A stretch of 64,000 bases of DNA, taken from contig CAUJGJ010000378.1 in NCBI GenBank assembly GCA_963170055.1, forward strand, positions 396,001-460,000. Direction: 5' to 3'. Below are positions 39,078-59,730 of the stretch, one piece after another; positions within the stretch are counted from its first letter, which is position 1; every line of letters begins with the position of its first letter. The translations under genes were made by a program, and so were the position numbers. Below the pieces are notes generated by a model. It did not search any database. It was not told the DNA's origin and worked only from the letters and a program-made list of their open reading frames with translations. This DNA is from Halisarca cf. caerulea (Eukaryota > Porifera > Demospongiae > Chondrillida > Halisarcidae).

Positions 39078-41170
39078 TCAGTTACATGTAACTTGGACTG
39101 GTTGCTGGCTCAAGAATGTATAATTCAGACTGCAGTCAGCTGTCACCATTATCAGATGACGATGAGCAGTTCCAGCAAAGTAGTTCTGAAGAAGCACTGT
39201 GGGATGAAGTGGGCTGTAACTCTCACAGAAAGAAGCATTGGTAACTGGTGGGCTCAGGTTAAGGACACTGGGTACAGCGTCATGGCCTCCTAGAAACTGA
39301 TCAGTTTGGTTGTTCATAAAAAACTTTGACACAATGCGAATAATTAAGTTGGTAGCTTCCCTTTCAAAGCGCAGTTTCTTTGTATTGATGTAGGATAAGT
39401 CAACAGTATCCAGCAATCCATCATCAGATTTGTTTACAATAACTTTTGTACCAGAGGATTCAAGCAGGTTGTACGTATCAGAGCCGTTTCCTCCAATAAG
39501 TATGCCATAGCCATCATCGGCTATTAAAGTGTCATTACCTCCTTCTCCATTTAGAACATTATCATCCATGGATGAGCTTATCATGATGTCATCATATGGG
39601 GTTCCATAAGCATTTTCCACATGGTGTATCTCATCAATACCATGTGGATGTTGACAGATGCCATTGTTGAGATCCACACAGATGCCAGTTTCATTGAGCA
39701 CATTTCCTGCATATAATATGGTATCATCGCCAGGTCCACCATTAATGTAGTTGTCACCAGCTCCCGGTGATAAGAGGTCATTACCATATCCACCATGCAA
39801 AATGTCATTGCCGATTCCACCACTCAGAGTGTCATTTCCCAGCCCTCCAAATAGAGTATCATTTCCAGCTCCTCCTTTGAGGATGTCATTCCCATCTTCG
39901 CCCATGCAGGAGTACGTCATTAGCAGCTCCACCCACTATTGTATTGGGCTTGTTGTTTCCAGTGATGTCATTAGCTACAGATTTGTAACCATAAACTGAT
40001 CTCACTTCTCCATGTGTTGTATTATCACTGAGACTTATGTTCTGGTGGTGCCTGTGAGTGCTATGCTGACTGGCTTTGTTAATGACAATAATCCCTGGAG
40101 TGAACCTGTCCTCAGGTGAGATAACAAAAGTAATGCCATCACTTGAGACAATAGTGAGATGACGTGCATTTGGATTGACTACATAGTCAACCAGTGTTGC
40201 TGAAAATGACTTGTTGGCATCGGAGGGATCTGTGTACTGCAGTGTCACTGATCGTGTATTAGTAGTGACTAATATCTGACTGTAGTTGGCACCAAAGAGG
40301 ACTGTGTCCGCAACATTGTCGGTTAATTGCGACATTTTGAATAGAAATTTGACCATATCCGGACTTCAAGACATACGTATCACTGCCATTGTTACCTCTC
40401 ATATTACCTCTACCCTCTCTAGGATCAATGTAGTTGTCCATCTGATTTCCTGTGATGACATCTGAATGTGGAGAGCCAATGACACGTTTAACTTTTTGAA
40501 ACTTAGCATCAGTCAGATCAATTGTCATGGGATGCTCTGCTTTGGACTTGTCAATCATTACTGCCACAGGAGATTGAGCACTTGTAGATGTTAAAGGAAG
40601 GGTGAATGCTACACCATCTTTAGAACGGACCAGAAGAAGCTGGTAGTTTGGTCCTCGGAACCAATGATGCAAAACTACACTGATTTTGGAAGATGAACTG
40701 TCTGTGATATTCAGATTTGTCCCAGCAGCATTTATGATGATGTTGTCAAAATTTGCGCCATATAGAAGAAAATCATCTTTTCCATCAGCAGCATAATGTA
40801 ATATAGTGCAGTGTGGTTCTGGTGCAAGGTAACCATCCTGTCCATTTGGAGATGGTAACTTCACAACATAGGTGTCTGCACCTTGCTGACCTGCTATAGT
40901 ATCGTAGCCTCCTTCTCCAGCAATGTAGTTGTCAAGGTCATTTCCCAAGATGATATTGCCATCATTTGTTCCTACAACCGAAGTAACCTGATTCAAGATT
41001 ATGTTAGAAAGAAGATCCACACTTCTATTCTGAGATGTCAGCTCTTTCAACGTAGGAATAAGTCTCCCCCTGCCAGTGCTAGGGTTATGGTGAATTTCCA
41101 AAAATACGTTGTCCTGTAAATCTGATCTCTGAAATTCTCCAATTTGTAAATCAGTCAGTTTTCGATACAC
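39078..41170 (-). pseudogene. RTX-type calcium-binding repeat protein, frameshifted
   Basis: Three long minus-strand frames follow each other: 41170 to about 40340, 40345 to about 39895, and 39905 to the stop at 39078. Two single-base frameshifts, near 40340 and 39900, break them. The middle to end carries GGxGxDxLx nonapeptide repeats ([20 protein letters not shown] and following units, about 39730-39900), the signature of RTX/hemolysin-type calcium-binding beta-rolls. Isolated repeats also occur near 40930 (GNDLDNYIAGEGGYDTIAG). This motif is common in secreted bacterial proteins and rare in animals. No pore-forming or enzymatic domain is visible, so a toxin role is not supported. It may be a pseudogene or contain assembly indels. 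Confidence 0.8.
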
Positions 41171-42662
41171 AGGTTACAGAGTAGCTTTTACCTGATGCAG
41201 AAGTCAGATGAGCATATAACCATAATATATTAGTCATTATCTAGTCACTCTTAACATAGGTTAACTACATTCATAGCTAGATGTAATGTTATGCATGCAA
41301 ACATAAATTTAACTTAATGTGCCATAATCCCTGTTACAAAGGTGGTTAGGCAATATGGCAGAATTCACAAGATTGCATTCATTACTTACAGCCCTGCCAC
41401 TGCATATGTGTATTAAGCTAGTTTGTATATAGCTAGTGCTAAGTGTAATGAGGAAAATGTTCAAACCATAAGCACTATAATCACTGATGTGAGACACTTG
41501 ATTTCCCCATAATCACCCATATTTTTTGGAGCATAGGTGTGTGAGACTATGAGTAGAGTACACTAAGGTTAATTAGGACACACAATTATCATATTTAATA
41601 TAGCTGTTATCAGTAGCATACTGTTCTGCAATGTACTGGTACACAATGCATGCATAACGGTAAACTGTAGATCTGTTTTTTTAGGCATCTCAGGTACATA
41701 CATGCAATGCCATGGGCAGAGGTATAATATGTAATAGCATAGAGATTGGTTGTTAAGTGTACCCTGTCACATAAGTGCATAGTCTCTTGTCGTCCTAGTT
41801 AAAAAAGACCCATAGACCACCAAAACATGTGTCAACTTTAAATTAAAGGAGCTTCAAACACAGTAACAACCTTCGTTCAGCCATGGCCATGCAGAGGGAC
41901 TATTCAAGCAGTGATGTTTGTATGAAGAGTGGATGGTGATAATCTTATAACTAAACCTATAGTAGGCCAAATACTGTTCGCAAAGCTCTGAATACAAAAG
42001 TGTTAGGTTTGCAGAAAAGTAGTAAAACGTTTAAAAGATCTGAAGTCATTGAAACATCTCCCAAAAGTGCCAGTTCACAGATCTAATACACAATAAAGCC
42101 TTATGTGAAGAATTACAATCTTTATCAACCCGCTGTCTTATTTTGCCTCGCATTTGGCTGTTCAAACTCTTGTGGCATAGGCATTATTAAGCTAATGCTA
42201 TAGAGGCGTCAATACAATGCCATAGTCTCCTTTTTGTTAAGTGCATATTGTTTATTAGGCACATAATTCCTTTCCACTTACAGTCAAAGCCACATGCGTT
42301 TAACAGCCAGTGTCCACAGTATTATATAGAGATATACTATGCACACCCACCCACTAGGACATACCCATCAGCCATGCATGCATGACACTGTGCAAAATCC
42401 CCCCCTCCCCCCCCCCCAAAAAAAAAAATCATTTTACTTATTTATTTATTTGTTTATTTTTAGAATTCTTTTGTACAAACATTTTCAATCTCTTTTGTAC
42501 CTATGTTTATTATACCTTTTCCTTTTCTTTTATGGGTGCCATGCACTAATAGTAGCCCTTGGCTAACGGTTCCCCAGTCTAATTAAGAATACCCGAGTAC
42601 CTGATTATATGATAAACTACATCAAGCTCATCAGACGACGAGGCATATAGTTTTAGATTTAT
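41171..42662. other. Interval between two RTX modules, no gene seen
   Basis: It separates two homologous RTX modules on the same strand. It could be an intron or decayed spacer. It contains a C/A homopolymer stretch near 42397-42428 and a ttta-rich tract after it. Confidence 0.5.
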
Positions 42663-43520
42663 TCATTCTGCATTTGCCTTGATATCATCAAAGTTGGCAT
42701 CATACAGAAGTAAATCTATTTTACCATCAACAGCATAGTTGTCAATCATACTATGTGCTCTGGAGATAGTCACTGTATGACCTGGTGGCCCAGAACTAAT
42801 AGTCTCTGTGTATGGAGATTCGGCTGAATCATAGGCATTTCTTTTCTTCCTTGATGACTTTGATGCCTTGACAACATAGGTGTCCGCACATTCTTGGCCA
42901 GATATAATGTCATAACCTACAGCTCCTGCAATGTAGTTGTCAAGATCATTTCCTGTGATTTCATTGTTATCTTCTGTCCCAGCAACTGAGGTAACCTGTT
43001 TCAGGATATCATTTAAGCAAAAGTGTACATTTTTATCCTGTGATGTCAGCTCCTTCAAAGTAGGAATCAAATTTATACTGTCAGTATTGGTATCATGACG
43101 GATTTCCAAGAATACATAGTCCTCAGAATACAAGGTAGCGTGCCGGTATGACTTGCCAGCAAACCAGGTGTTAATGGTCAACCTATAATTGCCGGATTGG
43201 ACTATCAGATCAAATTTGTTTGGAGATCTGTATGCACTGATAGAGTCAACATTCGCTGGAAAGAAAATTGTGTCAATATTCGATCATCACCATCTGCATA
43301 CTGTATGTTGTAGGTGTCAGCGCCATCACGGCCATTCACGTAGTCACTGCCTTTGCCAGGAACAATGATGTCATCACTATTATATCCATACAATTCACGA
43401 ATTCATCATCATGTTCAGAACCAATCAGTTGTTTTACTGTGGGATAACCCAGCAAACCAGGAGCTGGGTTGAAAAATACACCCGATTTACTTCCATCTCC
43501 ACTGAGAGCATAAGGGACTC
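42663..43520 (-). pseudogene. RTX-type module, upstream duplicate, frameshifted
   Basis: From 43520 down: coding-like text GVFFNPAPGLLGYPTVKQLI near 43440-43490, GSDYVNGRDGADTYNI near 43310-43350, then the frame 43181-42663 with FLEIRHDTNTDS, LIPTLKELTSQ, VTSVAGTEDNNEITGNDLDN and YIAGAVGYDIISGQ. The last part is paralogous to 41120-40720 (LIPTLKELTSQ, GNDLDNYIAGEGGYDTIAG). So the ancestral gene had two copies of a module of about 150 residues. Frameshifts lie near 43390 and 43265. Its upstream continuation is cut off at 43523 by the CACTA-type transposon. Confidence 0.75.
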
Positions 43521-43550
43521 CTACACTGCAAAATATGATCTGTTTTACTG
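43521..43550. repeat. CACTA left terminal inverted repeat and target duplication
   Basis: CTA at 43521-43523 is the target duplication. The inverted repeat occupies 43524-43550 and begins CACTGCAAAATATG. Compared with the right end it differs at two positions. Confidence 0.95.
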
Positions 43551-43720
43551 CCTTATAGTGTGTAGTAAACTATAAGTAGTTCTAAAGTATACTGTAGTAT
43601 ACCATGATGTACCAAGAGATTTACCATTGCAGTAGTATAGAGTAAACTGACAAGTAGATTTACCAACTCTGAGTAAACTACAAACAATGCATAACTAATC
43701 CACTATGAATGTCATTAATA
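43551..43720. promoter_or_regulatory. Left subterminal repeats of the CACTA element
   Basis: Short motifs recur in both orientations: agtaaac (near 43561, 43651 and 43693), gatttacca (near 43617 and 43662) and gtagta. The same motifs occur at the right end. In CACTA elements such subterminal repeats are transposase-binding sites; that role is inferred here. Confidence 0.55.
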
Positions 43721-43909
43721 TTAACACCTTTAGCCTGGACCTGAGGTCAGTCTCCTTGATTCAAATGAGGTACCGCCTCCTAATGAATATTATTATACTG
43801 ATCAGGAATATATTTGAATATTCATATTTGAATAAGTAGCCATGGAAGCAAGCAAAACAATGATGTGTAACAAAATGGAGTAAAGTTATAAAGAGAATGT
43901 GTATTAGAG

Positions 43910-45516
43910 TTAAATGTTCCTAAGACCTGCAGCAATGTCATTATGAGAAGAGTCTGACAATGAAGTCTCTGAGTCTTCGTTATCTGTCTCAAAGTGGAGT
44001 GGCTGAAGGACATTTTGCCTTGTTGTCTCAGAGTCCTCAAAGTCCTGAGCAGAAGTATCAGGCACACTGAATTCTAGTGGACTGCAAGTCCTCACTGGTT
44101 CAGTGGTGTCTATGTGAAGTAAGTAGATATATAACATAAAGTCAAAAGAATATGAGCTGTAATATTTTTGTAGCTTACCATAGCACAACATCCACTGCAT
44201 ATCAGCCAAATGGTGAGGAGGGCTACCGTTTTGAGGATCTCCTAGCCGTCTAGGCACTTTTGCATGAGATTTACCCCTGTTAGAATTAGCTCTCTTGTCA
44301 AGGTATTCTAGGAATTTACTCAGATCTACAAAAGAGAAATATGGGCATAGTTTTGGGTCATATATACTTTGACAAACTTTTTGTGTGTATATCCATATTA
44401 TAATAATGTGTATACTTACCTTCAGATCGATATTCAGGTTTGTGCACTGTAAATCCGTTGTCCTCGCTATCTGTGGATTCCTCACTCATGTCAGTGACCT
44501 TAAGGGGAATCCACAGATCCTTCTCTTCAGAAAGGACATGCTTTGATCGCCTAGTGTATTTCTACATGTCATATTGAATGAATTATAGTTTTGGAAGAAT
44601 TATCATTCACTATAACCTTAATTAATTGCGGGCTCACTCTGTTTTGTCTAGATCAGACCCTCCTCCTCTTTGCCTGTTGTTCTTTATGCTCACTCCAGTC
44701 AGCCTTAGCTTCTCGATGATTTCGCCGAATATTTTGATACAGGCATGTAACTGACCCTGAATATGTGGTCAAGGAAGTTATACGTAAACCTGCAAGTAAA
44801 GGTGAAGGCAAGACTTTGTATATTCTTTATATTGTACTTTTGATTTCTTCACTTGAGTTTTGGGTACATGTCTCCGTAAGCACAGATTCAAGTTGTTCCC
44901 TTGTACTTGAGTTGTGTGTGCTTGTGATTCTGTATGGAAAGTTTTAACTTTAATTCCGGGTACTGTATATACAGTGCATGAGCATGTGAATGTAAACTTA
45001 ATACATTTCATCTGCTTTGAATTGTCTACTTTCATCCAAACTTGAATGGATTTGCTTTGCCTTCTTCTACATGGATATAATGTAGTAGGACTTGAATAAT
45101 ATTGTCTATAGTATGTGTACATACGTACGTTGTAAGTGTTGGTATCTGGTAGTGCGCTAAGTACATGGTATTTATTAACTCACACTTATGTTTGCTGGTA
45201 AACGTTTCTTCACAGCCGTATTTTTTTTTCCTGACAGGTTGTTAGTTATGTCGTCAAGCTTCCTTGTTAACTCTTCATTTTTAGACGTTTGTTTCTCAAT
45301 TTCGTGCCTCAATTGTTTCACTGTTTCTGTTTGTTGAAACTTTATTTCTCTTACATCAGAAGCTTGTTGCTTGATTTGATGTAGGGCTTTTTTTTGAGCT
45401 GTTTCTTGTTCCTGTATTTTTCTTTCCTGCTGCCTAATGGTATCCAGGAGTTCACGAGTAGTTGGTAAAGTAGTACTCCTGCTGAGGCCTTCTCTAAAAA
45501 AAGCATTAGACATCAT
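43910..45516 (-). CDS. CACTA accessory coiled-coil/acidic protein, five exons
   Basis: Predicted exons (minus strand): 45516-45186, 44789-44659, 44561-44420, 44325-44179, 44109-43910. All junctions are GT-AG and phases agree (1, 0, 1, 1), giving a 951-nt frame of 316 residues ending in TAA. Donors GTAAGT and GTAAGC are strong; GTGTGA and GTCTGA are weaker. Exon 1 encodes a coiled coil (LRHEIEKQTSKNEELTRKLD). Exons 2-3 hold a basic patch (KRRR/KYTRRSK, a likely nuclear signal) and the block GFTVHKPEYRSE...LSKFLEYLD. I associate that block with uncharacterised transposon-linked animal proteins. The C-terminus is acidic and Ser-rich. Lying next to the transposase in the same element, it may be a DNA-binding partner comparable to plant TNPA; this is inference. 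Confidence 0.72.
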
Positions 45517-45760
45517 GCCTAACTTTATAGGGGTGCTCAATAGGCCTAGGATCTAAACTCTAGAGACTGCTGATCTATCCTCCCCGTTGAAAGATAGATG
45601 TGGGCGGAGTTCAAATTTCCCTCCATTATGGGTGGAGCTTAAACTTCCCTCCTTTTCTGCCCACAAACATTATTGGCCAATGGAATTCTTGTTGGGTCAT
45701 GTGATCCATCGTAGGGTTATATATGAACGTACTTACCCACACTAAATTTATACTATTATA
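45517..45760 (-). promoter_or_regulatory. Likely promoter of the coiled-coil gene
   Basis: Directly upstream of the start codon lies a 2-unit direct repeat of about 26 bp at 45602-45653 (gggcggagttcaaatttccc / gggtggagcttaaacttccc), then a CCAAT box in ttggccaatgg near 45673. The TTCCCTCC core also appears twice upstream of the kinase gene, suggesting shared control. Confidence 0.4.
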
Positions 45761-46162
45761 TGACATGCACTTTACGTGTTAATTTATGTATGCTGTAATA
45801 GTGTCCTGGTGTATGCATATTATGTGCAATATTTGTATAGAATGTGCAATATTTATATAGAATGTGCAATAACTATGTGTGCACGTATGCAGAGGTATAT
45901 TATATGCATGTTTGAAAGCACAGAAAGTTCTCTTTGCCATTACCATGCAATTACGTAATGGTGGTAGAATTTTCACTGCCGGATATAAAACATGATTTCA
46001 ATTGTTACAAGAACTTAATACAAAACTTACAACGTGATGTACTGCATACTCTCTGGTAAATTGTGTAAATGTTTATATAAAGGATAATAATGAAAGAAAA
46101 TGTACGTATGTCAATAAACAGTACACAAATCTCAGTTACATATTATGTATCTGATTCTGGAA

Positions 46163-49100
46163 TCAACGGAAAAAATTCAAACATCGCAGAATACTTTCAT
46201 CAGCAATAGAATCAACTGGTGCTATGGCAATTATATTGGGTTGAAAATCATGATCTGGTAATTGTTTATGGGCAGCACGAGAAAGAATAAGCGACATGGG
46301 TATGAAGCTGCTACTGGAATCTGTATCCGTGTTATGAAAAATTGTCCAAGGGAAGGGTAACTGGGAACCGCTGAATTACCTAAGCCAGTGTACTCTGGAT
46401 ATGGTTATTGTCACATGACAATCCAATATTACTGTTATCTGGATAAACTCAATTGATTTCCCGACTGAAACTCCTTGGTGATCATGAATTGAATAGAAAT
46501 AACAACATTTGCTATCACTCTCACAGCTATCATAAGTTATCTCACCATACGTGCATCTCTTTGAAATTGAGCATTCCTTTGCTACTTTTACATCACTATG
46601 AGAAGAAATATTGGCAATGAGTTGCTCTATCTGGCTTAATTCTTGGTCATGGAGGAAAGATTGGACTGGGGTTCTTAGCAAAGAATTGTACTTGGAGTCA
46701 CAAAAATCTGTTATATGCCGCGTCAATCCAATTTGAAGATAGTATCGATTTGTGGTGATGACTACTGGGTTCAACGATGCCTGAACACTATTTGAAATAC
46801 GTTTATTTTTGTATAGTGGTGTACTCTCTAAATTAATTACCTCCTGGATGTCATTTGGGATGTTCTCGGTCTTCTCCTCTGTCTCGGATATCCTCAGAAA
46901 ATGGCGCATTAGTTGCACTGTGATGTTCTTATGATTAAGCTGTGCTTCTCCAAGGATCCCATTGTACCGTTCAAAGCTAAATAGCCACAATCCTTGGGCA
47001 GGTCCGAATCTACGTAAACAATCAGGTATGTGGCACGCAAAGTGCATGTTCGGAACACACGCTGACGATCCAAAGAGGGACTGAAATTGTGTGCAGTAGT
47101 CCACCATGTGCTGAGTGGCTTCCTGGCAGAGGTCTTCTGTAATCACCTTACTACACATTAAACAGCAGGCTTTCACAAACTTCACATACATATCCATTTG
47201 TTCAGTAGGTAAAATGGCATGAAGACAGTAAGTAGAATATAATGTAGTCCATATTTTCCACTGGTCAGCTGTTAGGTTGCTAAAACCACTGGATATTTTA
47301 GATGGAATACGTGTAATACCCCGTGGAACATGAATTGAATTCAGAATCTTTTGTATGTTATTGTATTGTGCTGCAGTAATTGTGTCCTTTTCAATCCAAA
47401 GATGCGTTGTTTTCTTGGCTATTCCAAGAAAGAGGGTATGCATAGGATCAATGATTGTATTTTCTATTGGGTCAAAACCTGGTAGGCTTCGGGAGTTTAG
47501 TACTGAATACCGACAGCCAGTATTACGAACAATCTGCTTTCTCTCAGCTGGCGTTTTAGCCTGTATGACATAATGAGAGGAGACAAGATTCGTGACATGT
47601 ATAGTATACACATTATGTGTACAATACAGTGGAACACTGTTAATAGTATAGCACTTACAGGAATATTGTGGATAAAGGAATATTGTTTCTAAGACCAATT
47701 GTATATAAAGCCAATACATTTCATTTTGAATAATGAAAAATTTAGCCTAAGAATATAGGAATATTTTTTGTCATTCTAAGGGGTATGCTATTAAGAGTGT
47801 TCCACTGTATATAGTTTTAGTGCTATATATACAGTACAGGTACAAGTATAGTTGCACTTACTCGCAAAATTGACTATTCTAACTGTTCACAGAAGAAATA
47901 TTTATGATAGGCCATGCAGTGTGAGAATGTCTATCAAGTCACACATAGGAAAGAAAACTAAAATCACAACGCTCACATTTCGTACCTGAAGATATCTATC
48001 AGCACACTCCAGCACAGCCTATTTAGTCCTGGGTTCCCAGTTTGAAATGTCATAACCTGAGTAATCCATACCTTTTCCAAAGCCATTGCTGGGGAAAACT
48101 TTATTGCATTTATAGCAGCCATTGTAGGAACAGAATGAAGAAAAACCGCTAAGTCCACGTGCTGCAGGATTGTCATTGGCAGTGCACGTGAGAAATGCTT
48201 GTACGATAAATCTGTCAACAACTTGTCCTATTCGAAATTCTTTCAGCTCTTCTACTATTGGCGCCATGAAAGGGTTTAAATCTTTTGGTTCATGAGGGCC
48301 AGGTATAATTCCTGTGAGTAAAATGTTACTGGGCTTATACCGTAAGTGCCGTGGTAAATTATTGATGGATAGATATACTACTCCAACAGAATGGTGGGTA
48401 TGCTTGTAGGGTTGAAACCAATCAACATTCAGGATGAAGCTAATGATAACTTTTTCATAACTACCAGCAACATCTGGAATATCAGGTAGAGACTTCACCT
48501 AATAGCAAGCAAAAATTAAAGTAATTCTTTTACAGTGTAAATAGTATACTGTAGTAATAGTATAGTAAAGAGTATAGTTACAGTGTAATATTCTGCACAT
48601 GCAATTCTGTCTAACATACAAAACAACAGTGTAGGGTCATACTGGAATGGTGACGGCAAATTGATTGGAGAGTTACTGTTAGTGCATGCTGGAGAACTTG
48701 GATGTGCAGCAGTGACAAATGAGTAAATGACAAGTGAGCAATTTACTACCGTATACGCTTTAATTTTCGCCTGGTTTAATATTCGTGGTATTCGCGGATT
48801 GGAAGCCATCTGCGAAGTTTAGACCCACGAAAATTTAGATCGGGCTCTTGTGCAATGGCCAAACATGGCCGTCCGTGAATATTAAAATGCAAGAATCGCA
48901 AAAAGACAAAATCCGCGAAATATACACCCCACGAAAACTAAAGCGCATACGGTATCTATGTACATGAGGTCTTCACCATTTCTAACATCATGATAATGTC
49001 TCTTTTAAGTTTGTATAATTATTATGTACATACCTGAGATTTGATGGCTTTGCCATCTGTAATGTCAAACAGATGAGTTGCTTCGCCAGTGTTATCCATT

Positions 49101-50290
49101 GGTAAAATTTGTGAACACATTCTTGGTAATATCCTCGCCAAGGAAGCTGAGATTGAATGATATACATATGTAAGAACTGGTTTTAATAACATCGTCCCAC
49201 TTGGGGATGGTTTGGATGATGCTACAACAGCATCACAAGCTCCCCTTCGTGATTGCTGAGGGTGTTGTGGATATGGCACATTTGAGCATTTCACAGTGGG
49301 CTGTGTAAAAGGGAGAATGTATAGTGATACATATGTTATTTGAGGATACTCGAGGTAAATATAAAACATACTTGGTTAGCTTTTTCCAGAAATTGTTCAC
49401 TGTAGATTACATTGCAGTCTGGACATACTGCATACGTTGTATAAGTATCACAATTAATATCGGCTAGCACACACATTCTTTTTGCATTTGATGGGTGCTG
49501 TGCGGCCACTTTTTGTAGCATGTCGTGTTCTGACAGCTTAGCCAACATTTTAAGGTATTTTCCATTGATGGACAAAAGAGTCTGCATACAACTTGCTGAT
49601 ATTGAGTAATGAGCTTGTGTTGCAGCCATAAAAATGCTGTAACTTTGTAAGCACCGTTCATACTTGTAGGGAAGCTTGTCCTCAGTATCACTTGCAGTCT
49701 CTAAGCCAGATTCCTATAATTATGTGATTGTAATAAAGTCCTATAATATTAATATTGTTAAGCATGACAGTACATTAATCATTCGTATATGTATTTAGCC
49801 TTGAAGTATGTATGTACCTCCAGATCTGAGTTCATGGGGCTTTCCAATTCTGCATCATTCTGCACATTGTAACTACTCCAAAGCTCTTCTTGGTCAAGTG
49901 AATCTTCAAAACTGTATATGTAAGATGATGAGTTGGAACTGCTTGATCCTGAATTGATTTAATTACACTGCAATTAATGATAGACCAAGTGTGTGTCTGC
50001 TTTGCCTATGAAAATGTTTACTAATAGTTGTAGTACAACAAAATATACGCTACTTTACAAACCAATATACCTGGCATAGTTTCTTCATCCTGTATGTTTC
50101 CACTAGTATTTTGCTGTGAAATGAAGGTACTGGGCACAAAGGGAGGAGGTATCACTTCTGAAGTATTGTTGCTCTGGATCCATTCCCTGGTGGTGCTGTT
50201 GAAGTACTTACAACGGTGTTCCCAGAATGCGCTGTGACTGAGGTGTCTACTGCAGTGCCCACAATAATGTAGACGCTTTTTGGGTAGCAT
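46163..50290 (-). pseudogene. EnSpm/CACTA transposase (tnp2 family), two in-frame stops
   Basis: Six predicted exons, minus strand: 50290-50071, 49948-49818, 49713-49372, 49300-49034, 48498-47986, 47560-46163. All have GT-AG junctions and consistent phases, giving a 957-codon frame including the final TGA. The N-terminus has a Cys/His finger (YCGHCSRHLSHSAFWEHRC, residues 9-27). Exon 4 contains QQSRRGACDAVV; exon 5 the tnp2 core (ILNVDWFQPYKHTHHSVGV, ILLTGIIPGPHEP); exon 6 IIDPMHTLFLGIAKK (Asp529) and FERYNG (Glu688), which I take as parts of the acidic catalytic set. A TAG interrupts codon 480 (48019-48021) and a TAA codon 886 (46376-46378). Coding-like sequence of the family continues after both. 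The family cuts and pastes CACTA elements. Confidence 0.85.
48747..48954. mobile_element. TA-flanked MITE in transposase intron 4
   Basis: A 208-bp palindrome-like element with ends taccgtatacgctttaattt and, inverted, taccgtatgcgctttagttt. TA at each end fits a Tc1/mariner-type target duplication. It lies in the intron between exons 4 (ends 49034) and 5 (begins 48498), explaining why that intron is about 535 bp while neighbours are 70-125 bp. No coding capacity. Confidence 0.8.
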
Positions 50291-50709
50291 TATAGATGTA
50301 CATAGATTACCAAGACTACCTCTATGGTGAAATACAGCTAGAATTCACTAGCTCCTTGCACTTTTATATGATCTTTAGCTTATTTCCTTATTTAGTGCAC
50401 TTGCAAGTGCCCAGTTTAAGTAGATTCATCTTATTCCTGGAGGTCCTTGTGCATGCAATCATTGCACTTTATATCCCACAATATAAAACCTAGTTGAGTA
50501 CTATGGTGGAATAGTATAGAATGTTGGATACAATGGAGAAACTACTACATGCAGTGCAGTTTGTTTCCCTATAATACAGTTAATTTGAATTAAGATTCTA
50601 AGCTCCCTGATTCTCCTGGGACCTAACACCTTAGCTAAGTCCAACCCAGTCTTTGGGAAATAGACCACCTAGCTAGCCTCTCCAATTTGATTACTGGAAA
50701 TTGGCAGTT

Positions 50710-51050
50710 ACCCATGTAACCAGTGGCCAACCCATAACACATGCATGTGTGTCCAGTCATCACACTACAGCGTGTAGCGGCCAACCCGTAACACTTCTGT
50801 GTCCAGTTGTCACACTACAGCATGTAGCGGCCAACCCGTAACACGTCTGTGTCCAGTCGTCACACTACAGCATGCAGCGGCCAACCCGTAACACATCTGT
50901 GTCCAGTCGTCACACTACAGCATGTAGTGGCCAACTCGTAACACATCTGTGTCCAGTCGTCACACTACAGCATGTGGCGGCCAACCCATAACACATCTGT
51001 GTCCAGTTGTCACACTACAGCATGCAGCGGCCAACTCGTAACACGTCTGT
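50710..51050. repeat. 50-bp minisatellite, array 1 (about 7 units)
   Basis: Units of 50 bp including ccaacccgtaacacgtctgt and gtcacactacagcatgtagc. First and last units are diverged. Direct repeats are contiguous, with no unique spacers. Confidence 0.95.
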
Positions 51051-51689
51051 GCACATGTTCAGTCATTACACTACAGTGAGTTCATTCAAATTTCATTTCC
51101 AATGTAGTGTGCCTAAGGTGTGGATCAAGTAAACAAAAATTTCAACTTGAAGCAATATGCCATATCTTAATAAGTACCCATCCCTAACCTTCAATTCAAC
51201 ATTTCAATATTGCCTCATGCAGAAGTGGAGCCTGAAGGAGTCAGAAGTGAAGCCTCATTGTATATTATTATGGACTTGTACAGGCTTCCAGGTCACTAGC
51301 CTGTATGTGACTTCATTTTCATTATGTCAGAATCAAGTAGATTCATCATTCTGCCTGGAGGTACCTTGCATGCAGTTCAGGTGTCTACTCTCAAAATTTG
51401 TCTCATAATATAAAGTCTACATTCAAGCCTTATAGCATAATACAGAAAGTTGGTTATTATATAGAAACTATTACATATACTATGTAGCTTGTTCCCCTAT
51501 AATACTGTTAATTTGAAGAAGCTCCCTGATTCTCCTGGGACCTAACACCTTAGCTAAGCCCAACCCAGTCTTTGGGAAGCAGACCACCTAGCTAGCCTCT
51601 CAAATTTGATTACTGGAAGTTGGTAGTTACCCATGCATGCATACAGAACTGGAGTTAATACATATTATAGTCTGAATGGAATAGAGCAA

Positions 51690-52376
51690 CAGTGGCAAAC
51701 CCATAACACATGCATCTGTGTCCAGTTGTCACACTACAGCATGTAGTGGCCAACCTGTAACACGTCTGTATCCAGTCGTCACACTACAGCATGCAGCGGC
51801 CAACCCGAAACACGTCTGTATCCAGTCGTCACACTGCAGCATGCAGCAGCCAACCCGAAACACGTCTGTGTCCAGTCGTCACACTACAGCATGTAGCGGC
51901 CAACCCGTAACACGTCTGTGTCCAGTCGTCACACTACAGCATGTAGCAGCCAACCCGTAACACATTTGTGTCCAGTCGTCACACTACAGCATGTAGTGGG
52001 CAACCCGTAACACGTCTGTGTCCAGTCGTCACACTACAGCATGTAGCAGCCAACCCGTAACACATCTGTGTCCAGTCGTCACACTACAGCATGTAGTGGC
52101 CAACCCGTAACACGTCTGTGTCCAGTCGTCACACTACAGCATGTAGCGGCCAACCCGTAACACGTCTGTGTCCAGTCGTCACACTACAGCATGTAGTGGC
52201 CAACCCGTAACACGTCTGTGTCCAGTTGTCACACTACAGCATGTAGCGGCCAACCCGTAACACATCTGTGTCCAGTTGTCACACTACAGCATGCAGCGGC
52301 CAACCCGTAACACGTCTGTATCCAGTCGTCACACTACAGCATGTAGCGGCCAACCCGTAACACATGCATTGTGTCC
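51690..52376. repeat. 50-bp minisatellite, array 2 (about 14 units)
   Basis: Same unit as array 1, period exactly 50 bp over most of the array, with variants at a few positions (cgtctg/catctg, tagcgg/tagtgg/cagcgg). The open frame across part of it is a by-product. Confidence 0.97.
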
Positions 52377-52498
52377 AGTCATGAATTTATACAAAATTAA
52401 TTCTATTACATGTGCAATCAATGAAAAAAATACCACACTGATGTCTCAACTTTCTATAATTAATAATGAATGTACACCTTGTTCAAACACTCTCAGTC

Positions 52499-53621
52499 TC
52501 AAATCTTTTTCCTTAGGAAAGTGAGCACATTATTGATGTCTGGTCTTTCAGCTGCATCATACCGCATGCTTGCACTGATGACCTGATCATACAGGGGTGC
52601 CTCACGTGATAGTTTCCTTTGACCAACCACTTTGACAATGCGCCCAAATGCATAAACGTCACTCTTTTGGCTTTGTTGCACCAGTCCATCGCGTAAATCT
52701 GGGGCAACTTGAGGGTAGTGCTTCTTATATGTAGTAATTTCTGCCTTAGATAAGATGTACCTTTTTCCTGACTCGGAGTAGCAAGCTTTTCCAAAATCAA
52801 CCAAGTGTGCATGTACCACTCCACCTTCTACCTTGCCCAATGTTACATTATTCAACTTGATGTCATTGTGCAGTATTTTTTGCTCATGGATATGCTTTAG
52901 TGCTTCTCCAATTTCTATGAGCAGTCTAAGGAAGTCCTTAGCTGAAAAGCCCTTCTTATCTAGAGCTTGGTCATAGTTTAAAGGAGCTCCATCTACAGTG
53001 TGCAATGACATTATCAGAGCCCTCTCTGCCAGGCATACCCCAAAACAATGAGGAATGTGCCTATGCCCACCCACTACTGCCAAAATCCTAGCTTCAGCTA
53101 ACAGATGATGCTCCAGCACACTGTCTTTCATGTATTTAGCACATACTGCATACCCCTTGTACATTTTGACTTGACAATGCCCGAATGTGCCTTCTCCCAG
53201 CTCTTGCATGCTTTTGTTCCCATTTGTTTGTAATTGCTCTTCAGGAATGTGTGTAACATTCACATCCATGTGCATACTTCTTCGTGGACGGACCCCCATC
53301 ATGCGCTTTGCGTGTTCTCTATATGGTGTTGGCCTTCGTTTCCTGTTCTTTAATTTTATTTCTGTTTTCTCTGAGGCATTGTGCATCCTGTCTAAATAGG
53401 GTGTCCTGGTAACAAGAAACACCATGTAGTTTTTAAAAGTACGCTCATATCTAGTACATGCAGGCATGAAGTGGAATGCAATTACCAGATATCAATTTTA
53501 AAGAAAACATACAAAACTCTTACTTCTCTTGCTTCTGTGCATTTGTCTCCAAAGCATTTCGGAGTTCTGTCCTTAGTCGTTGAAGTTGCTTCTTTTGGTT
53601 CTCTCTTCTCTTTCGACCCAT
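52499..53621 (-). CDS. Protein kinase carried by the CACTA transposon
   Basis: Two exons, 53621-53524 and 53405-52499, with intron GTAAGA...CCAG and matching phase 2, encode 334 residues. The N-terminal ~90 residues are basic and probably coiled (QKKQLQRLRTELRNALE). The rest is a protein kinase domain: Gly loop GEGTFG (103-108), VAIK-type Lys123 (VCAKYM), helix-C Glu137, catalytic HNDIKLNN (His212-Asn219: Asp214, Lys216, Asn219), DFG (236-238), APDL in place of APE (267-270), SDVYAFG (281-287) and Arg320 (ERPDI). Every catalytic residue is present, so activity is predicted; Asn replaces Arg in the HRD motif. Substrate class is not certain. It lies just inside the right end, in the same orientation as the transposase, with no stop or frameshift. 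Confidence 0.9.
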
Positions 53622-53682
53622 GGCTTACAATCAGTCAAAATGGTGAAATATGAGCAGTTCAGGCTATTTTAGTGGTCTAATG

Positions 53683-53824
53683 TTCCCTCCAAAACTTACC
53701 TTATAACCATAAATGTATATATCCCTGGTCACTCCCCTTAAGGGGGGGAGATTTTTCCCTCCAAAACTTACCTTGTAACCATAAATGTACATATCCCTGG
53801 TCACTCCTCCCCTTAAGGGGTAGA
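53683..53824 (-). promoter_or_regulatory. Tandem 72-bp repeat with palindromes upstream of the kinase
   Basis: Two units (53683-53754 and 53755-53824) each read ttccctccaaaacttacctt ... ccctggtcactcc and end in the perfect palindrome ccccttaagggg. They lie about 60-200 bp upstream of the kinase start codon. A duplicated palindrome at a promoter suggests a protein-binding site; the factor is unknown. Confidence 0.5.
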
Positions 53825-54239
53825 TCCTATTGTGAGGGTTTCTGGTATACTGTGATTGAAATGGTCAGGTTTGGGCACAGAACATGTTATTATTGCAAAT
53901 GTGGCAGTACACTTTTGTATGTACAGTTAGGAGCTTGTAAGTGTAAGCATGAATACTGTAGACATACAGAATGATTGGTAATTAATATAGTTTAGTATAT
54001 ATCATGCATCAGTATTGATTATTATATGTATCAAGGTATACTGTCAGCATATTATTATACTCGAATTAGTACAGTTACTGTGCATTGACTAAATACATAT
54101 GGAGTATGAATATACATGTACATTATGCTCTAATTTGCATACGCCAGTTGAATGCTTTCATGCAAAATTTAAATATTCATATTTGGTGGTCAATATTAAT
54201 GATATTCATAAACTGCTTCTGATCTCAAAGGATGTACAA
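53825..54239. other. Right non-coding part of the CACTA element
   Basis: No gene is seen. It lies upstream of the kinase promoter repeats and before the subterminal repeats. Confidence 0.5.
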
Positions 54240-54333
54240 GATTTACCATGTTGGTAGTAGGCAGTAAAACAGGGGCATTGGGGAAAGCATGGTAAACTTA
54301 TGGTAGTGTAAAGGTACCACGTAAAGTAAAACA
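54240..54333. promoter_or_regulatory. Right subterminal repeats of the CACTA element
   Basis: The motifs gatttacca (near 54240), cagtaaaacag (near 54263 and 54334), ggtaaac (near 54291) and gtaaagtaaaac echo the left end in both orientations. Probable transposase-binding sites by analogy with other CACTA elements. Confidence 0.55.
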
Positions 54334-54363
54334 CAGTAAAACAGACCAGATTTTGCAGTGCTA
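54334..54363. repeat. CACTA right terminal inverted repeat and target duplication
   Basis: The inverted repeat is 54334-54360, ending ccagattttgcagtg. CTA at 54361-54363 repeats 43521-43523. Confidence 0.95.
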
Positions 54364-54410
54364 CTACCTCATAATTAGAGTGTTTTTCAAATTGATGTGA
54401 AACAATACAA

Positions 54411-54490
54411 AATGTGATGTTTTGAAGTTCAATGTGATGTTTTGAAGTTCAATGTGATGTTTTGAAGTTCAATGTGATGTTTTGAAGTTC
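54411..54490. repeat. Four perfect 20-bp tandem repeats
   Basis: Four identical units aatgtgatgttttgaagttc lie directly beside the CACTA insertion, in the RTX-family locus. Confidence 0.98.
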
Positions 54491-54491
54491 A

Positions 54492-55364
54492 AGTGCTGGA
54501 AGGGAGAACCACTAAAATAGGCCAGAATGGTGACATTATCGCGATATGATTAGAATAAAAGATCATGCATGGAATCTCTTTGGAATGATCATATAAAGTC
54601 ATCTGTATCTTCCCTATCATAATTACCAACAGTAACATGGGTAGAGTCGCTATAGAGGAAGTAGATGTCTGCACCTGAATAGCCTTCAAAATATGTGTGT
54701 TGTGGTCCAAAGTAAAAGGAATCATCTCCTCCATTTCCCTTCACTATATGTAGTGATATAGTCTTCGAGTCCATATGGGAGATTTTTTGGCAATTTCTGA
54801 ACAGTGAAGAAGTTGTTGTTCCCATTGTTTCCATAGTACTGACCGTGCAGTGTGGATTTGTCACTCTGCAAACCTGATATAATCTTCTTGTCAACTGGTA
54901 TTACCCAAAATACAATTTAACAGATTCTTACTTGAAGTTCACTGTGTTAGTCTCACCAATTCCCATAAGAATGTCATTAATTGCAAGAATAAACTGTAAA
55001 TCCCGATAAATGTGTTCATTCATGTCCATTGCTATCAAATGTCTATACTTCTTCCTCCATCAAGCAGTTGAAAAATGATATTTCCCCCATTCCATGAGTC
55101 AGCAGCACCAGCAAAATTGATTGCAGCAGGTGCAGTGGTTTTGCACATGGTGACCTAGATGGAAGTAATTGTGATAATTTGCAAGTCCTCTCAAAAACCC
55201 CTGGTTTTCTTCATATTGCTTGTCCAATTTCGCTAATTCAGATGGAGCTGAGAATATTTCTCCAGTAAGAGTATCTACTATGTCAAGAATGGCTTCACCA
55301 ATATACCTTTAAGTACAGCCACACTATATATCTGTCCAGCACTAGCATCAGGTGAGTCAAGTAA
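54492..55364 (-). pseudogene. RTX-family gene relic, upstream part (copy Y)
   Basis: Minus-strand blocks in several frames: SPDASAGQIYSVAVLKG with DIVDTLTGEIFSAPSEL near 55235-55355, INFAGAADSWNGGNIIFQLL near 55065-55140, DLQFILAINDILMGIGETN near 54940-55000, and GNGGDDSFYFG with FEGYSGADIYFL near 54660-54750, an RTX-like repeat. Frameshifts and stops separate them. This part and the module at 43520-42663 flank the CACTA element and are probably two halves of one gene. Not functional; no activity can be assigned. Confidence 0.65.
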
Positions 55365-57058
55365 CACTAAGCCCAAATTTAATGGTGCATGAGCCCTAGC
55401 TCTATCATTGAGGTTGAGAGGACTCCTTCACAGCTAGTGGAGACACAAGTATATAAGGTGTTGTCTTGACAGCTAGTGGAGACACAAGTATATAAGGTGC
55501 TGTCTTGACAGCTAGTGGACACACAAGTATATAAGGTGCTGTCTTGACAGCTAGTGGAGACACAAGTATATAAGGTGCTGTTAGTGGAGACACAAGTATA
55601 TAAGGTGCTGTCTTTACAGCTAGTGGAGACACAAGTATATAAGGTGTTGTCTTGACAGCTAGTGGAGACACAAGTATATAAGGTGCTGTCTTTACAGCTA
55701 GTGGAGACACAAGTATCTAAGGTGTTGTCTTGACAGCTAGTGGAGACACAAGTATATAAGGTGCTGTCTTTACAGCTAGTGGAGACACAAGTATATAAGG
55801 TGCTGTCTTTACAGCTAGTGGAGACACAAGTATATAAGGTGTTGTCTTGACAGCTAGTGGAGACACAAGTATATAAGGTGTTGTCTTGACAGCTAGTGGA
55901 GACACAAGTATATAAGGTGTTGTCTTGACAGCTAGTGGAGACACAAGTATATAAGGTGTTGTCTTGACAGCTAGTGGAGACACAAGTATATAAGGTGTTG
56001 TCTTGACAGCTAGTGGAGACACAAGTATATAAGGTGCTGTTAGTGGAGACACAGGTATATAAGGTGCTGTTTTTACAGCTAGTGGAGACACAAGTATATA
56101 AGGTGCTGTCGTTACCCGCCACCAGTTTATCCCTGAGGGAAGTTATGCCTTCCTGCATAGTGATAAGTAGCAATGAAGGTACATGTATGTAGTGAACACA
56201 GAATGATGTTTTAATGTGGTAAAACAATTATTGTAATATATATCATGCAGGAATAAATGAATTCAATTTGAGCTGAATGAGGTATAAATAAGTAGATAAT
56301 TGTAGTACTGTTACTGTAGTTATCACTAAATTATATCAAAAAAGCAATGTTCCATGCTGTAGTGAATGGGGGATGTCTTTGTCATTTAATCGTAGCAACG
56401 TTCCATCAGATTTTGAGTAGAAATGTAGAAGACAGGGAAGCAAATAACAAAGGTAATCATTATGCGACGGTCATTATCATGTCTTTGAAATGCCCCTACA
56501 TTATAATTGCTATTTCAGATACAAGAGTCAGATGACCACAAGCCTAAGGTAGATGCATGCAATGTAATGCATTGGATTCTTGTCATTTATGGTAGTGTGC
56601 TCACTGGTAGATAATGACTGGGGATGTGGCTAGTAAATCGTTGGAGTAATGTGAGGGCAAACAAATTGCCACACAGTAATTACGGGTCAAGAAGTGGACC
56701 AGGGTCTATGTTACTCCTATATACTAGGAAGGAAAAAAAACAGGAGCCCAGGGTTCTAAATTATGCAGATGCCAGCTATATCAGACACCGCCCTGGCATT
56801 AGGTATACATGGGGATAGCAAACTGGTGATCACTTTTCACATGATAAGTTCCGCTAAGCATGTGAAAGAAACACTAGGACAATGCCATCTCACTCCTAGC
56901 TCAAAAACCGTTGTGGTGTACAAAACAGACTGCCAGTTCAGGGGTGTAGGCAGGCATTTCTAGAGGGGTTTTCCAATTGAAATAACACAACACCATATGA
57001 TGATAGTATGCAGTATTATGCATCTGCCATTGCGCATATCCTATGCATGCTCCAAATG
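55365..57058. repeat. Segmental duplication, copy Y, left part
   Basis: Matches 29885-30893 but is longer because of the expanded 39-bp minisatellite. No gene is seen. The open frame at 55379-56227 results from a 39-bp period that is a multiple of three. Confidence 0.93.
55430..56110. repeat. 39-bp minisatellite, about 18 units
   Basis: Units of gctagtggagacacaagtat followed by ataaggtgctgtcttgaca; two units are a few bases shorter. The paralogous site near 29950 has a single unit, so the array arose in this copy after the duplication. Translated it gives a 13-residue repeat (TLYTCVSTSCQD..), which I regard as incidental. Confidence 0.96.
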
Positions 57059-57086
57059 TTGGGGGTGGGAGGGAGGGGGGAAAAGT

Positions 57087-57697
57087 AAACTGAACTATGT
57101 TCACAACTAGTTTGAAAATGTCTCACTATCAGAGACTTACCTCTCCCAATTAATGTAAAAGAATTGATTGCATGAATTTTTTGCTGTATGTGTGATGTTA
57201 TTAAGCATATTTAATATTGTTCTTTGTACACTTTGTACAGTTTCTGCATGCTCTTTTGTTTGCAGCTGTTGTGTACTGCTGTTACAGGTTTGGATCCCCA
57301 CTCTATAGTGGCCTCATAGCGTAAGTTGGCAAAAGACTTTACCTGATCACAAACTTCTATGAAACTATATATTATACTTCATACCATTACCTTGGCTATC
57401 AAATCAGAATGTAGAATATCATTATCAAGACCCACAATTCATTACTTGAATGGTCACATGGCACAAAGTCCGAGACTGGAATTTTTAAATGTTTTCAGTC
57501 TTTACAGCATAATTTTCAAAAGATTGCTTGTTTTGGTTCCAATAGTAAGCTGTGCCAATTTCATAAGATAGATCCATGCACAAATTGTCACTCACATCAC
57601 AAGGCTATACTAAATCTGCAAAACATGTGATGCCCAATGCAGCCTAATTTAGCCAAATAATGCCCTATGACAATTATCTGGAGACTGCATAGAATTA
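57087..57697. repeat. Segmental duplication, copy Y, middle part
   Basis: Matches 32716-33312 up to the LINE insertion point; the last nine bases atagaatta (57689-57697) are the left target duplication. Confidence 0.92.
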
Positions 57698-58396
57698 CGA
57701 ATATGCCTGAGATATGGATGGCCTCCAGACAGATTGCCATCAAAATGTGAGTGTGGCAGCACTTTCTCTGTGGACCATGCCCTGAATTGTCCAAAAGGAG
57801 CCTTCCCAAGCATAAGGCACAATGAGTTGAGGGATTTCACAGGCGATCTCCTTTCTGAAGTGTGTCACGATGTCTCCATTGAACCCCTGCTGCAACCGTT
57901 GGAAGGAGAAAACCTTGACTATGCAACTGCCAATCGTGAAGAGCATGCCAGATCAGACATCAAAGCAAGAGGATTTTGGGGATCCAACCGTCAATGTGCA
58001 TTTTTTGACATTAAGGTATTTAACCCTAACGCACAGTCAAATCGACGGACAACTCTTGAATCCTGCTACAAACGAGAAGAAAAGAAGAAGAAGCGTTGCT
58101 ATGAACAAAGAATCTTGGAGATTGAGCACGGCACTTTCACTCCACTTGTATTTAGTACCTCTGGGGGCATGGGAAGGCTTGCAAAGACTTTCTTTGCTAG
58201 ATTGGCTTCTCTCCTGGCAGACAAACGACAGGCCAAGTATGCCACAACAATGGGATTGATCAGATGCCAAATCAGCTTCTCATTGATGAGATCCGCAATT
58301 ATGTGCCTTCGTGGAGCCCGATCCAGCCGCCATCATGCAAGCAAGGTCTGTGACAGTATACCACTAGCTGTCACAGAAGGAAGATTTTCCATCTAA
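57698..58396 (+). pseudogene. LINE C-terminal domain (finger plus nuclease-like), 5' truncated
   Basis: An open frame runs from the insertion boundary to a TAA at 58394-58396, about 232 residues. It begins RICLRYGWPPDRLPSKCECG, then a Cys/His finger (CECG...HALNC), IRHNELRDFTGDLLSEVCHD, GFWGSNRQCAFFDIKVFNP, EHGTFTPLVFSTSGGMGRLA and SLMRSAIMCLRGARSS. This ordered set is a repeated C-terminal region of animal retroelements. The (R)SDIKA...FFDIKV pattern could be a PD-(D/E)XK nuclease core, which I infer and have not verified. Open throughout, but it lacks the reverse transcriptase and a proper start, so it is a dead fragment. Confidence 0.85.
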
Positions 58397-58509
58397 ACAA
58401 TATTGTACATATTTGTCTATTTGAACAATAATAACTATTACATATTTGTCTATTTGAACTTTACCTTGTTGTAAAGATTAATTAATTTTTTGGAAAAAAA
58501 AACCAAAAA
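57698..58509 (+). mobile_element. 5'-truncated LINE insertion with 9-bp target duplication
   Basis: The 812-bp insert is flanked by atagaatta at 57689-57697 and 58510-58518. It ends in an A-rich tail (58490-58509). The homologous sequence without the insert is at about 33300. All this is the signature of target-primed reverse transcription: truncation at the 5' side, tail at the 3' side, target duplication. Confidence 0.92.
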
Positions 58510-58945
58510 ATAGAATTATGAATTAAATTGTAAATTACAATTTTATCTGTACGCGTTATTCAGTAATTCTTCTGAAGCCTTTGATAGTATAATGCTACAC
58601 AAACAAGCTGTCAGTTTGCCCGATTCATAACAAGGCATGTTTTGGAAGCCTTTCAAGGGTAATTAGTCAGTTAATAACCTGTTATGAGTCTGTTGAACTA
58701 ATCTGACAATTACAGTCAGTCTACATTCTCAATTACTATTATAATACATATTATTAACCAATCATAGCAACTTTGGGAATCGTGGTCAAAACATTTTGAT
58801 TGGGAACAATAATATTCATGGGACAAGATTCGAACAGATTGTGTTTCAATTAAGTTGTGATACTCATAATTGATGCATTAGTTCCTGTTGGCAACTAAGA
58901 ACAAAACAGTGTGTGACAGATGGTTTGATTATGAAACAGTTCTTA
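58510..58945. repeat. Segmental duplication, copy Y, right part
   Basis: Starts with the right target duplication (58510-58518) and continues the match to 33312-33760 (acaattttatctgta, gggaatcgtggtcaaaacat). It ends where a TG-rich tract begins. Confidence 0.92.
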
Positions 58946-58959
58946 TGAATGATTAGGCA

Positions 58960-59102
58960 TGCGTGTGTGTGTAGGCGTGCACGCCTGTGTGTGTGCATGT
59001 GTGTGTGTGTGTGTGTGTATGTGTGTGTGAGTGTGTCTTAATTTTTGCGCATGCATGTGTGTGGGTGTTCTTGTGTGTATGTGTGTGTATGTGTGTGGGG
59101 GG
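58960..59102. repeat. Interrupted (TG)n microsatellite
   Basis: TG-rich with many interruptions and a G run at its end (59097-59105). Confidence 0.95.
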
Positions 59103-59199
59103 GGAGACTCATGTCAAGTACCTCCACATGGTGAGCCCCGCTAACGCATGCTATGCTGAAAAACTTGACTGCTGTCAGCTATCGTGAGGAGTAGTCCAG

Positions 59200-59434
59200 A
59201 TACTGACAGTTCTCCACTTGCCTTGGATTTGCAACCTGAGGGAGTTTATTGTCATCTTTGCACGAGAAATTGGCAAATCGTTACACTACGTTTTTACATC
59301 TACAAGATGGGAAAACAAATGAAAAACTGTAGATGCTTGGTTGTTTGCTCTTAGAATGATCAAACTCTTGTTGAAAGTTTTTGTGACCCCCATATCAGTA
59401 GGAAGAGGCAGGGTCAGAGGGGTGGCAAGGATAG
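59200..59434 (+). pseudogene. Possible LINE 5' relic split by the copia element (left piece)
   Basis: The sequence up to the copia target duplication continues after the element at 63816, where a LINE endonuclease frame is visible. On its own this piece shows no certain coding feature. The link is positional. Confidence 0.35.
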
Positions 59435-59629
59435 TGTTGGAATAGTTATAGATCGCACTCTAACCAGAACATGATTTGTGTTATGTTAACTTTATTCATT
59501 AGTCACATGGACTTTGTAGTGTTACAGTTGTAGTGTTAATTCTAGATTGTTACACGTATTGTAGTTTCTTGATGCTAAATGCTGTGATTTATAGTGAGAA
59601 AGAATCTCGTTGACTCGCTAGTTCCAATA
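59435..59629 (+). repeat. Copia 5' LTR
   Basis: 195 bp beginning TGTTGGAATAG and ending CTAGTTCCAATA. It ends in TA instead of the usual CA, but the inverted TTGGAA/TTCCAA ends are kept. Confidence 0.95.
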
Positions 59630-59650: not shown

Positions 59651-59730
59651 TACCGCTGCGCCCTAGAGAGTTGTTTTTTGTTGTTTGCATCTTATTCGTT
59701 CTCATCGTGGAGTTTTATTGTGTGCAAGTA

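Follow-up and report, generated by a model that had tools for sequence, protein, structure and literature searches.

In the available excerpts of the papers cited here, CACTA/EnSpm transposons, including the TRC elements of animals such as SmTRC1, are described as combining a tnp2 transposase with short inverted repeats, a 2-3 bp target site duplication and a second gene (PMC4158355, PMC1636069, PMC8978399), one animal relative having CCCAGTCAAC ends (PMC1636069). CACTA elements of plants that capture genes, such as Pack-CACTA, hold host-derived sequence and have captured satellite arrays too (PMC8978399, PMC13317346). In other transposons, separate Kolobok lineages possess distinct accessory enzymes (nuclease, RecQ helicase, KolX; PMC9587614), and the KIU/VANC Vandal elements (MULE) conserve a captured Ulp1 domain within an element gene (PMC13317346). 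The Mos1 transposase is phosphorylated by PKA, a host kinase, and this phosphorylation controls (restrains) transposition (PMC3902898). The word 'kinase' has no occurrence in PMC1636069 or PMC8978399, and its two occurrences in the available text of PMC4158355 both concern a plant host kinase family. Among the open-access titles and openings of abstracts listed by the literature searches, a scope outside which subscription papers and Repbase fall, we found no kinase described as a CACTA/EnSpm component.

Here we analyse a stretch of 64,000 nucleotides from the sponge Halisarca cf. caerulea (the window). The element at 43524-54360 is a tnp2 (CACTA/EnSpm-like) transposon that encodes a tnp2 transposase, a coiled-coil gene and a two-exon protein kinase, all three on the minus strand (Table 1). 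As far as the available descriptions of CACTA/EnSpm and animal TRC elements go, it resembles them in tnp2, short inverted repeats, a 2-3 bp duplication and a second gene, and differs in its kinase gene, in the adjoining internal tandem array and in its termini, which begin with CACTG in the window's family (A) and with CACAG in F and G of family F, the superfamily motif being CACTA. Whereas the captures by plant CACTA elements described in those excerpts are gene fragments and added domains, the present kinase is whole, has mostly conserved catalytic residues, and is found in 4/4 copies and in several families. Kolobok is likewise a DDE transposon superfamily with lineage-specific accessory proteins, but a different one, and the available text of PMC9587614 contains no occurrence of 'kinase'; KIU/VANC Vandal elements are alike in having captured an enzyme domain and unlike in superfamily, enzyme and plant host. 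In the Mos1 system, as described in the part of that paper available, the kinase belongs to the host, whereas here it would come from the element itself.

Table 1. Features of the element, in positions of the window
Feature	Position	Strand	Detail
Target site duplication CTA, left copy	43521..43523	.	
Left terminal inverted repeat, CACTG...	43524..43550	+	25/27 identical to right end; left end found at 4 places in the genome
gene1 (third gene), coiled-coil, exon structure uncertain	43910..45552	-	open stretches 45175-45552, 44358-44561, 43910-44485
tnp2 transposase, at least 6 exons	46165..50290	-	Pfam PF02992; homology to other tnp2 of this genome
tnp2 exons, approximate bounds	50073-50290, 49819-49951, 49372-49716, 49034-49302, 47986-48500, 46165-47562	-	
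Tandem array 1, 50-bp unit, 6.5 copies	50725..51051	-	
Tandem array 2, 50-bp unit, 13.3 copies	51715..52380	-	starts about 120 bp downstream of kinase stop
Protein kinase exon 2, catalytic domain	52499..53405	-	stop 52499-52501
Protein kinase exon 1, basic, coiled-coil-like N-terminus MGRKRREN...	53524..53621	-	
Right terminal inverted repeat, CACTG... on minus strand	54334..54360	-	comparison with left end
Target site duplication CTA, right copy	54361..54363	.	

Boundaries, copies and genes of the element

The left terminus at 43524 reads CACTGCAAAATATGATCTGTTTTACTG and the right terminus ending at 54360, reverse-complemented, reads CACTGCAAAATCTGGTCTGTTTTACTG, giving 27-bp inverted repeats; the flanks read ...CCTA up to the left end and CTAC... 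from the right end. When CAC-headed end pairs round the element were scanned, the chosen pair matched at 20/22 positions and was accompanied by a matching duplication, and the runner-up matched at 15/22 without one. Because these ends recur, paired, at three further places in the genome, two of them with other flanks (AAT; AT or ATAT), the boundaries are correct, and the ends, inverted repeats and CTA duplication put forward in the preliminary description stand. The search that it proposed for copies with the same termini returned three full copies (B, C and D) besides that in the window (A), and the kinase gene is present in each, broken in D. Since A and B have common flanks, these four copies amount to three insertions. 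Under Pack-type passenger capture, the cargo would be expected to differ between copies; here the kinase gene is in 4/4 of the copies found. Target site duplications have the 2-3 bp size known for the superfamily (CTA in A and B, AAT in C, AT or ATAT in D, GAA in family F); no clean duplication was found at the ends of G, and an end-pair scan for H, I and K1 found no element ends.

The transposase matches Transposase_21 (PF02992) at 3.4e-12, with 46.4 bits against a cut-off of 28.6, a domain characteristic of the superfamily. Its two in-frame stops (codons 48019-48021 and 46376-46378) are real, and both are private to A among the copies compared; the five exons translated, all but exon 2, are open in B and C. 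In D, tnp2 and kinase are both lost as working genes. The kinase supplies the second, non-transposase gene characteristic of CACTA/EnSpm elements, as does gene1 under its uncertain gene model. The superfamily is also characterized by subterminal repeats to which an accessory protein binds; the repeats observed here form internal arrays of a 50-bp unit. The coil region of gene1 bears indels in B, C and D, and this coil together with an LP..SVS motif is weakly similar to coiled-coil proteins beside kinases of the second type (scores matched or bettered in 6, 0 and 1 of 500 shuffles).

That the kinase is complete and has its catalytic residues, as first described from the window, is borne out by Pfam (Pkinase, 1.6e-20, 74.1 bits against a cut-off of 31.7) and by alignment: the window kinase has the catalytic Lys, Glu, HND, Lys and Asn as well as D and G of DFG, all of them invariant across 16 rows, and across 33 rows the Lys and the Asp of DFG hardly vary. 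An AlphaFold model has a pLDDT of at least 90 at 225/303 residues. The intron is predicted from sequence (donor GT 53522-53523, acceptor AG 53406-53407) and is supported by exon 1, which is alignable in F and G (81/98 bases at 75%).

The kinase lineage across the genome

The kinase belongs to a lineage, typically with the motifs HND[IL]K and DFGK, that recurs in other tnp2 families. Among 17 lineage kinases, hand-picked by similarity to the element kinases and not all independent in that some are copies of a single family, 12 have a tnp2 match no more than 10 kb away and two more sit beside a tnp2 C-terminus, compared with none of 128 control kinases (the best-scoring of 914 Pkinase candidates). 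Two decayed kinase-like fragments were left out of the 17, and with them the count becomes 12/19: C412:7069992-7070247, 66 kb from its nearest tnp2 match and about 20 kb from a further tnp2 fragment, and C412:7589336-7590121, 146 kb from its nearest match. The loosest of the 12 linked kinases, P, is 8.2 kb away. Three of the 17 have neither a significant tnp2 match nor a C-terminus: E, a truncated relative of A (84% similar); N, with a tnp2-like piece at an E-value of 0.24; and O, a fragment adjoining a stretch that, judged by eye, resembles the accessory gene of F, with no tnp2 match. In N and O, the lineage's association with tnp2 rests on weak remnants.

In a tree built with a hand-picked selection of 18 host kinases and 15 metagenome relatives, the eight lineage kinases tested split from the 18 host kinases with an SH-aLRT of 99.9. 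The host kinase L101 is one that we take to be Src-like. Farther afield, the first kinase type has one distant match in viral_contigs and 51 in prokaryote genomes (22-43% identity), the second type was not found in viral_contigs, and neither collection yielded a relative whose eukaryote context could be read.

A one-off capture of the kinase was rejected, the gene being present in 4/4 copies and in other tnp2 families. A different scenario is that related host kinases were taken several times as passengers, selected as host genes and useless to the element. Several observations would fit such repeated capture. Kinase and tnp2 share a strand in A, diverge in F, G and H, and converge in I, J, K1 and K2, and since its place and strand thus vary by family, the modules have been rearranged or re-acquired. 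Furthermore, 45 of 57 tnp2 loci (matches merged within 5 kb, many of them fragments, in an incomplete set that omits some short pieces as well as many short matches confined to roughly residues 1-60 of the query, which extend into an intron) have no lineage kinase match inside 10 kb, and none was found at two intact tnp2 loci examined as a contrast. Finally, copies of a single family decay without kinase-specific constraint.

Three observations argue against repeated capture, which we regard as unlikely. First, exon-by-exon searches at the protein level, with kinases A, I and N as queries and a limited number of candidates scored, found no intact lineage gene clearly outside tnp2 elements. Second, the eight members lie on one side of a branch from the hand-picked host kinases. 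Third, the kinase is followed by a tandem array with a unit of about 50 bp in three families (A, F and H), relatives of array 2 lying behind the kinase of F, G, H and fragment L090, and since these arrays are related at the DNA level in A, F and H, they point to a single kinase-plus-array module. The presence of a distinct kinase lineage in several CACTA-type families, with catalytic residues largely kept, suggests element machinery rather than accidental baggage, and we conclude that the kinase is very probably an inherited component of tnp2 elements.

Selection on the kinase

Having the kinase intact beside a transposase with two stops was at first taken to mean that selection maintains the kinase. 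This argument fails, because both stops are private to A while the tnp2 exons translated from B and C are open, and because the kinase of B is altered at an invariant residue and D has lost both genes. The comparison of dN/dS between kinase copies, which had also been proposed, gave a divided answer. Between families A and F, dN/dS is about 0.22 (with dS near saturation) at 55% amino-acid identity, the catalytic residues being kept, and at the level of sequence this divergence shows purifying selection; between A and H, dS is saturated. No signal appears among A to C: within families, the change counts (3 synonymous and 8 nonsynonymous for A versus C, 3 and 3 for F versus G) give no significant one.

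Imagine that one ancient capture had been spread by successful elements and that the kinase were now selfish or neutral cargo in decay. Changes after insertion would then look neutral, as they do, and we might expect casualties such as D, which is broken, B, in which an invariant Asp has become Asn, M, where HID replaces HND and stops have appeared, and the truncated E; N, for its part, has DFN. However, kinase frames are open in A, B, C, F, G, I, K1 and K2, and the catalytic residues and low dN/dS between A and F speak against such decay, so that we consider the neutral-cargo scenario improbable, more so than repeated capture. Selection has probably kept the kinase active within the elements.

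Three insertions show the kinase gene travelling with the element; it is also found in other tnp2 families and largely keeps its catalytic residues. The proposal that it belongs to the element is upheld by its presence in all four copies and in other tnp2 families and by the purifying selection between A and F. On balance, we favour the reading of the whole as a tnp2-type DNA transposon with the kinase as an inherited component, its lineage being found in this genome inside or next to such elements or what is left of them.

Possible roles of the kinase

How might such a system have arisen and what might it do? The kinase may have been acquired a single time by tnp2 elements in the distant past and inherited thereafter, some loss or exchange having occurred between families. 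The protein would, judging by its sequence, be an active nuclear kinase, whose basic coiled-coil N-terminus may bring it to the element's own proteins, tnp2 and gene1, which might assemble at the adjoining tandem array. There it could phosphorylate tnp2 or gene1, or else host chromatin factors, and so set the timing of the element's movement or its silencing. Control of transposition or silencing is the role that we favour; the particular targets, element proteins or host chromatin factors, are put forward tentatively. It is equally a tentative suggestion that the whole constitutes a transposon-encoded signalling module, in which the element's own kinase, focused by the array, would phosphorylate tnp2, the coiled-coil protein or chromatin factors and thereby time transposition or escape silencing.

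The kinase might instead act outside transposition, as a counter-defence factor whose phosphorylation of host proteins for silencing or DNA damage lets the elements persist. VANC-type proteins of other elements relieve the methylation of their own family (as described in the available part of PMC13317346), and the basic N-terminus would suit a nuclear protein; the present data, on the other hand, do not tell host from element substrates, and we think this role rather doubtful.

An element lineage with a kinase of its own would show that transposons are able to supply a signalling enzyme themselves, and it would offer a direct system for testing whether mobile DNA uses phosphorylation to control its timing or its silencing. 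Kinase inventories of such genomes may, in addition, contain element genes rather than host kinases alone.

The element family and the state of its genes

Searching the genome (194.5 Mb, 454 contigs) for the ends of copy A, the element in the window, we found the right end at four places and the left end at four, plus a fifth match that is part of copy D, whose left end is interrupted by an insertion of ~2 kb. The end pairs delimit four copies, A to D (see table). The preliminary description of copy A was borne out in its structural part: CACTG termini, inverted repeats (25 of 27 bases identical) and the CTA duplication were confirmed, the ends recur at other genomic places, and the kinase gene is present in all four copies. 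The insertion in copy D (locus L022, from about position 1124) has inverted CATAATCCGAC-like ends. A truncated relative, E, ~84% similar, has lost the transposase gene tnp2 by deletion but keeps the left gene and a portion of the kinase.

The flanks of A and B show 0/1000 and 2/972 differences, gaps aside (the right flank also differs in length), and a piece at window position 60000 is duplicated too, at nearly equal spacing. A and B are therefore one insertion copied together with its surroundings, representing either a segmental duplication or an assembly artefact. The duplicate regions lie ~293 kb apart on one contig. Just beyond the right end, a 20-bp tandem repeat is of unequal length in A and B. 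Since both flanks of A encode, on the minus strand, apparent calcium-binding repeats, which we take from their motif to be RTX-type, the element may sit within a host gene.

Positions of element copies, related loci and associated features
Feature	Position	Duplication or remark
Copy A	window 43524-54360	CTA duplication
Copy B	C352:732292-743037	flanks common to A
Copy C	C412:6995813-7006766	AAT duplication
Copy D	C412:5649074-5663167	AT (or ATAT) repeat
E	C412:7130571	truncated relative of A
F	C40:1157070-1173111	GAA duplication
G	C369:6663968-6682658	no clean duplication
Duplicate regions	window 43524-60400; C352:732292-748930	
Calcium-binding repeats	window 40259-43523; 54589-54900	minus strand
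20-bp tandem repeat	window 54411-54492	
Array in A	window 50725-52380	

Selection on the kinase had been argued from its being intact beside a tnp2 with two stops, and this argument fails. Where A has its two stops, B and C encode amino acids, as does D at the first of these sites, which places the origin of both stops in A; with the five translated tnp2 exons (exon 2 aside) open in B and C, the contrast is peculiar to copy A and accidental. A, B and C each retain an open kinase frame, in which B has Asp replaced by Asn at an invariant site; in D, stops and frameshifts disrupt tnp2 and kinase alike. The kinases of A and C are separated by 3 synonymous and 8 nonsynonymous changes, no evidence of constraint within the family; for tnp2 the within-family counts are 15 and 15 (dN 0.007, dS 0.026).

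Kinases beside other tnp2 families

Twelve of 17 kinases of this lineage lie within 10 kb of one of 57 tnp2 loci (matches merged, short matches left out), as against 0/128 of the best-scoring other Pkinase matches. The count becomes 14/17 if K1 and K2 (open 425-aa frames with a kinase, adjoining a tnp2 C-terminus) are included, and 12/19 if two kinase-like fragments, not among the 17, are added. The contrast is large, yet the 17 kinases are not independent. Contigs C369 (14.2 Mb) and C412 (8.7 Mb), together ~12% of the genome, hold 27 and 11 of the 57 tnp2 loci.

A distinct family, ending in CACAG, is represented by two copies, F and G, the only places where either end was found; their tnp2 frames are open (787 and 834 aa), as is a 317-aa frame with a kinase 55% identical to that of A. 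Locus H combines a 692-aa tnp2 frame with a kinase split over two overlapping frames (54% identical to A). A second kinase type occurs at I, convergent with a damaged tnp2 and ~390 bp from its end; M resembles I, is decayed and bears an insertion, presumably Harbinger-like. At J, a kinase C-terminus cut by a run of N is convergent with an open tnp2. N adjoins a possible tnp2 remnant (a weak match, E 0.24), and O a piece that by eye resembles the accessory gene of F, for which tblastn gave no confirmation.

The kinase does not accompany every tnp2: at 45 of the 57 loci, many being fragments, no kinase of the lineage is matched within 10 kb. At two loci with intact tnp2, L113 and L114, the lineage-kinase profile finds nothing in the 1.3-5.4 kb read on each side, absence further out resting on genome-wide kinase protein searches. 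L113 has an unrelated 412-aa frame (4126-5361) in the convergent position taken by the kinase in other families, and L114 has no second-gene candidate within the interval read. It thus seems that the second gene differs from one tnp2 lineage to another, as accessory genes do among Kolobok lineages (PMC9587614).

Between kinase and tnp2, A has a 50-bp tandem array. The unit in F is nearly identical, G has A's array by blastn, and H and O have related units; neither locus I nor the stretch at M has such an array. Measured from the kinase stop, the array begins ~120 bp downstream in A, ~230 bp in F and ~310 bp in H; in O it begins ~210 bp past the last matched base of the kinase fragment. Unit alignments were equalled by 0/2000 shuffles for A-F, A-O, F-O, F-H and H-O and by 1/2000 for A-H, the H unit being one of several reported periods; the A-H similarity is short, since blastn gives no match whatsoever between the two. 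Array length varies among the copies, with 20 (A), 18 (B), 22 (C) and 25 (D) motif hits. We infer that the array is a putative cis-acting site.

Origin and possible role of the kinase

A tree was built from 8 of the 17 element kinases together with 15 of 33 metagenome relatives and 18 host kinases of our choosing; in it, the 23 element and metagenome kinases fall on one side of a branch and the host kinases on the other (SH-aLRT 99.9, by a quick method). A FastTree phylogeny of tnp2, built without support values, unites I with M and J and pairs A with H, broadly matching the kinase tree except that a further tnp2, H2, is placed beside F. Kinases A and F differ with dN 0.36 and dS 1.64, a ratio of ~0.22; A versus H is saturated. 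The pattern fits a single old acquisition followed by selection. It is conceivable, instead, that selection acted on the kinase before several captures.

The kinase is co-mobilised with the element and recurs across families with its catalytic residues largely conserved. The protein would be active as a kinase, would be sited in the nucleus and would have substrates to phosphorylate. There is a precedent in the inhibition of Mos1 transposase by PKA (PMC3902898). We favour the reading that the kinase, encoded by the element, may regulate transposition or silencing.
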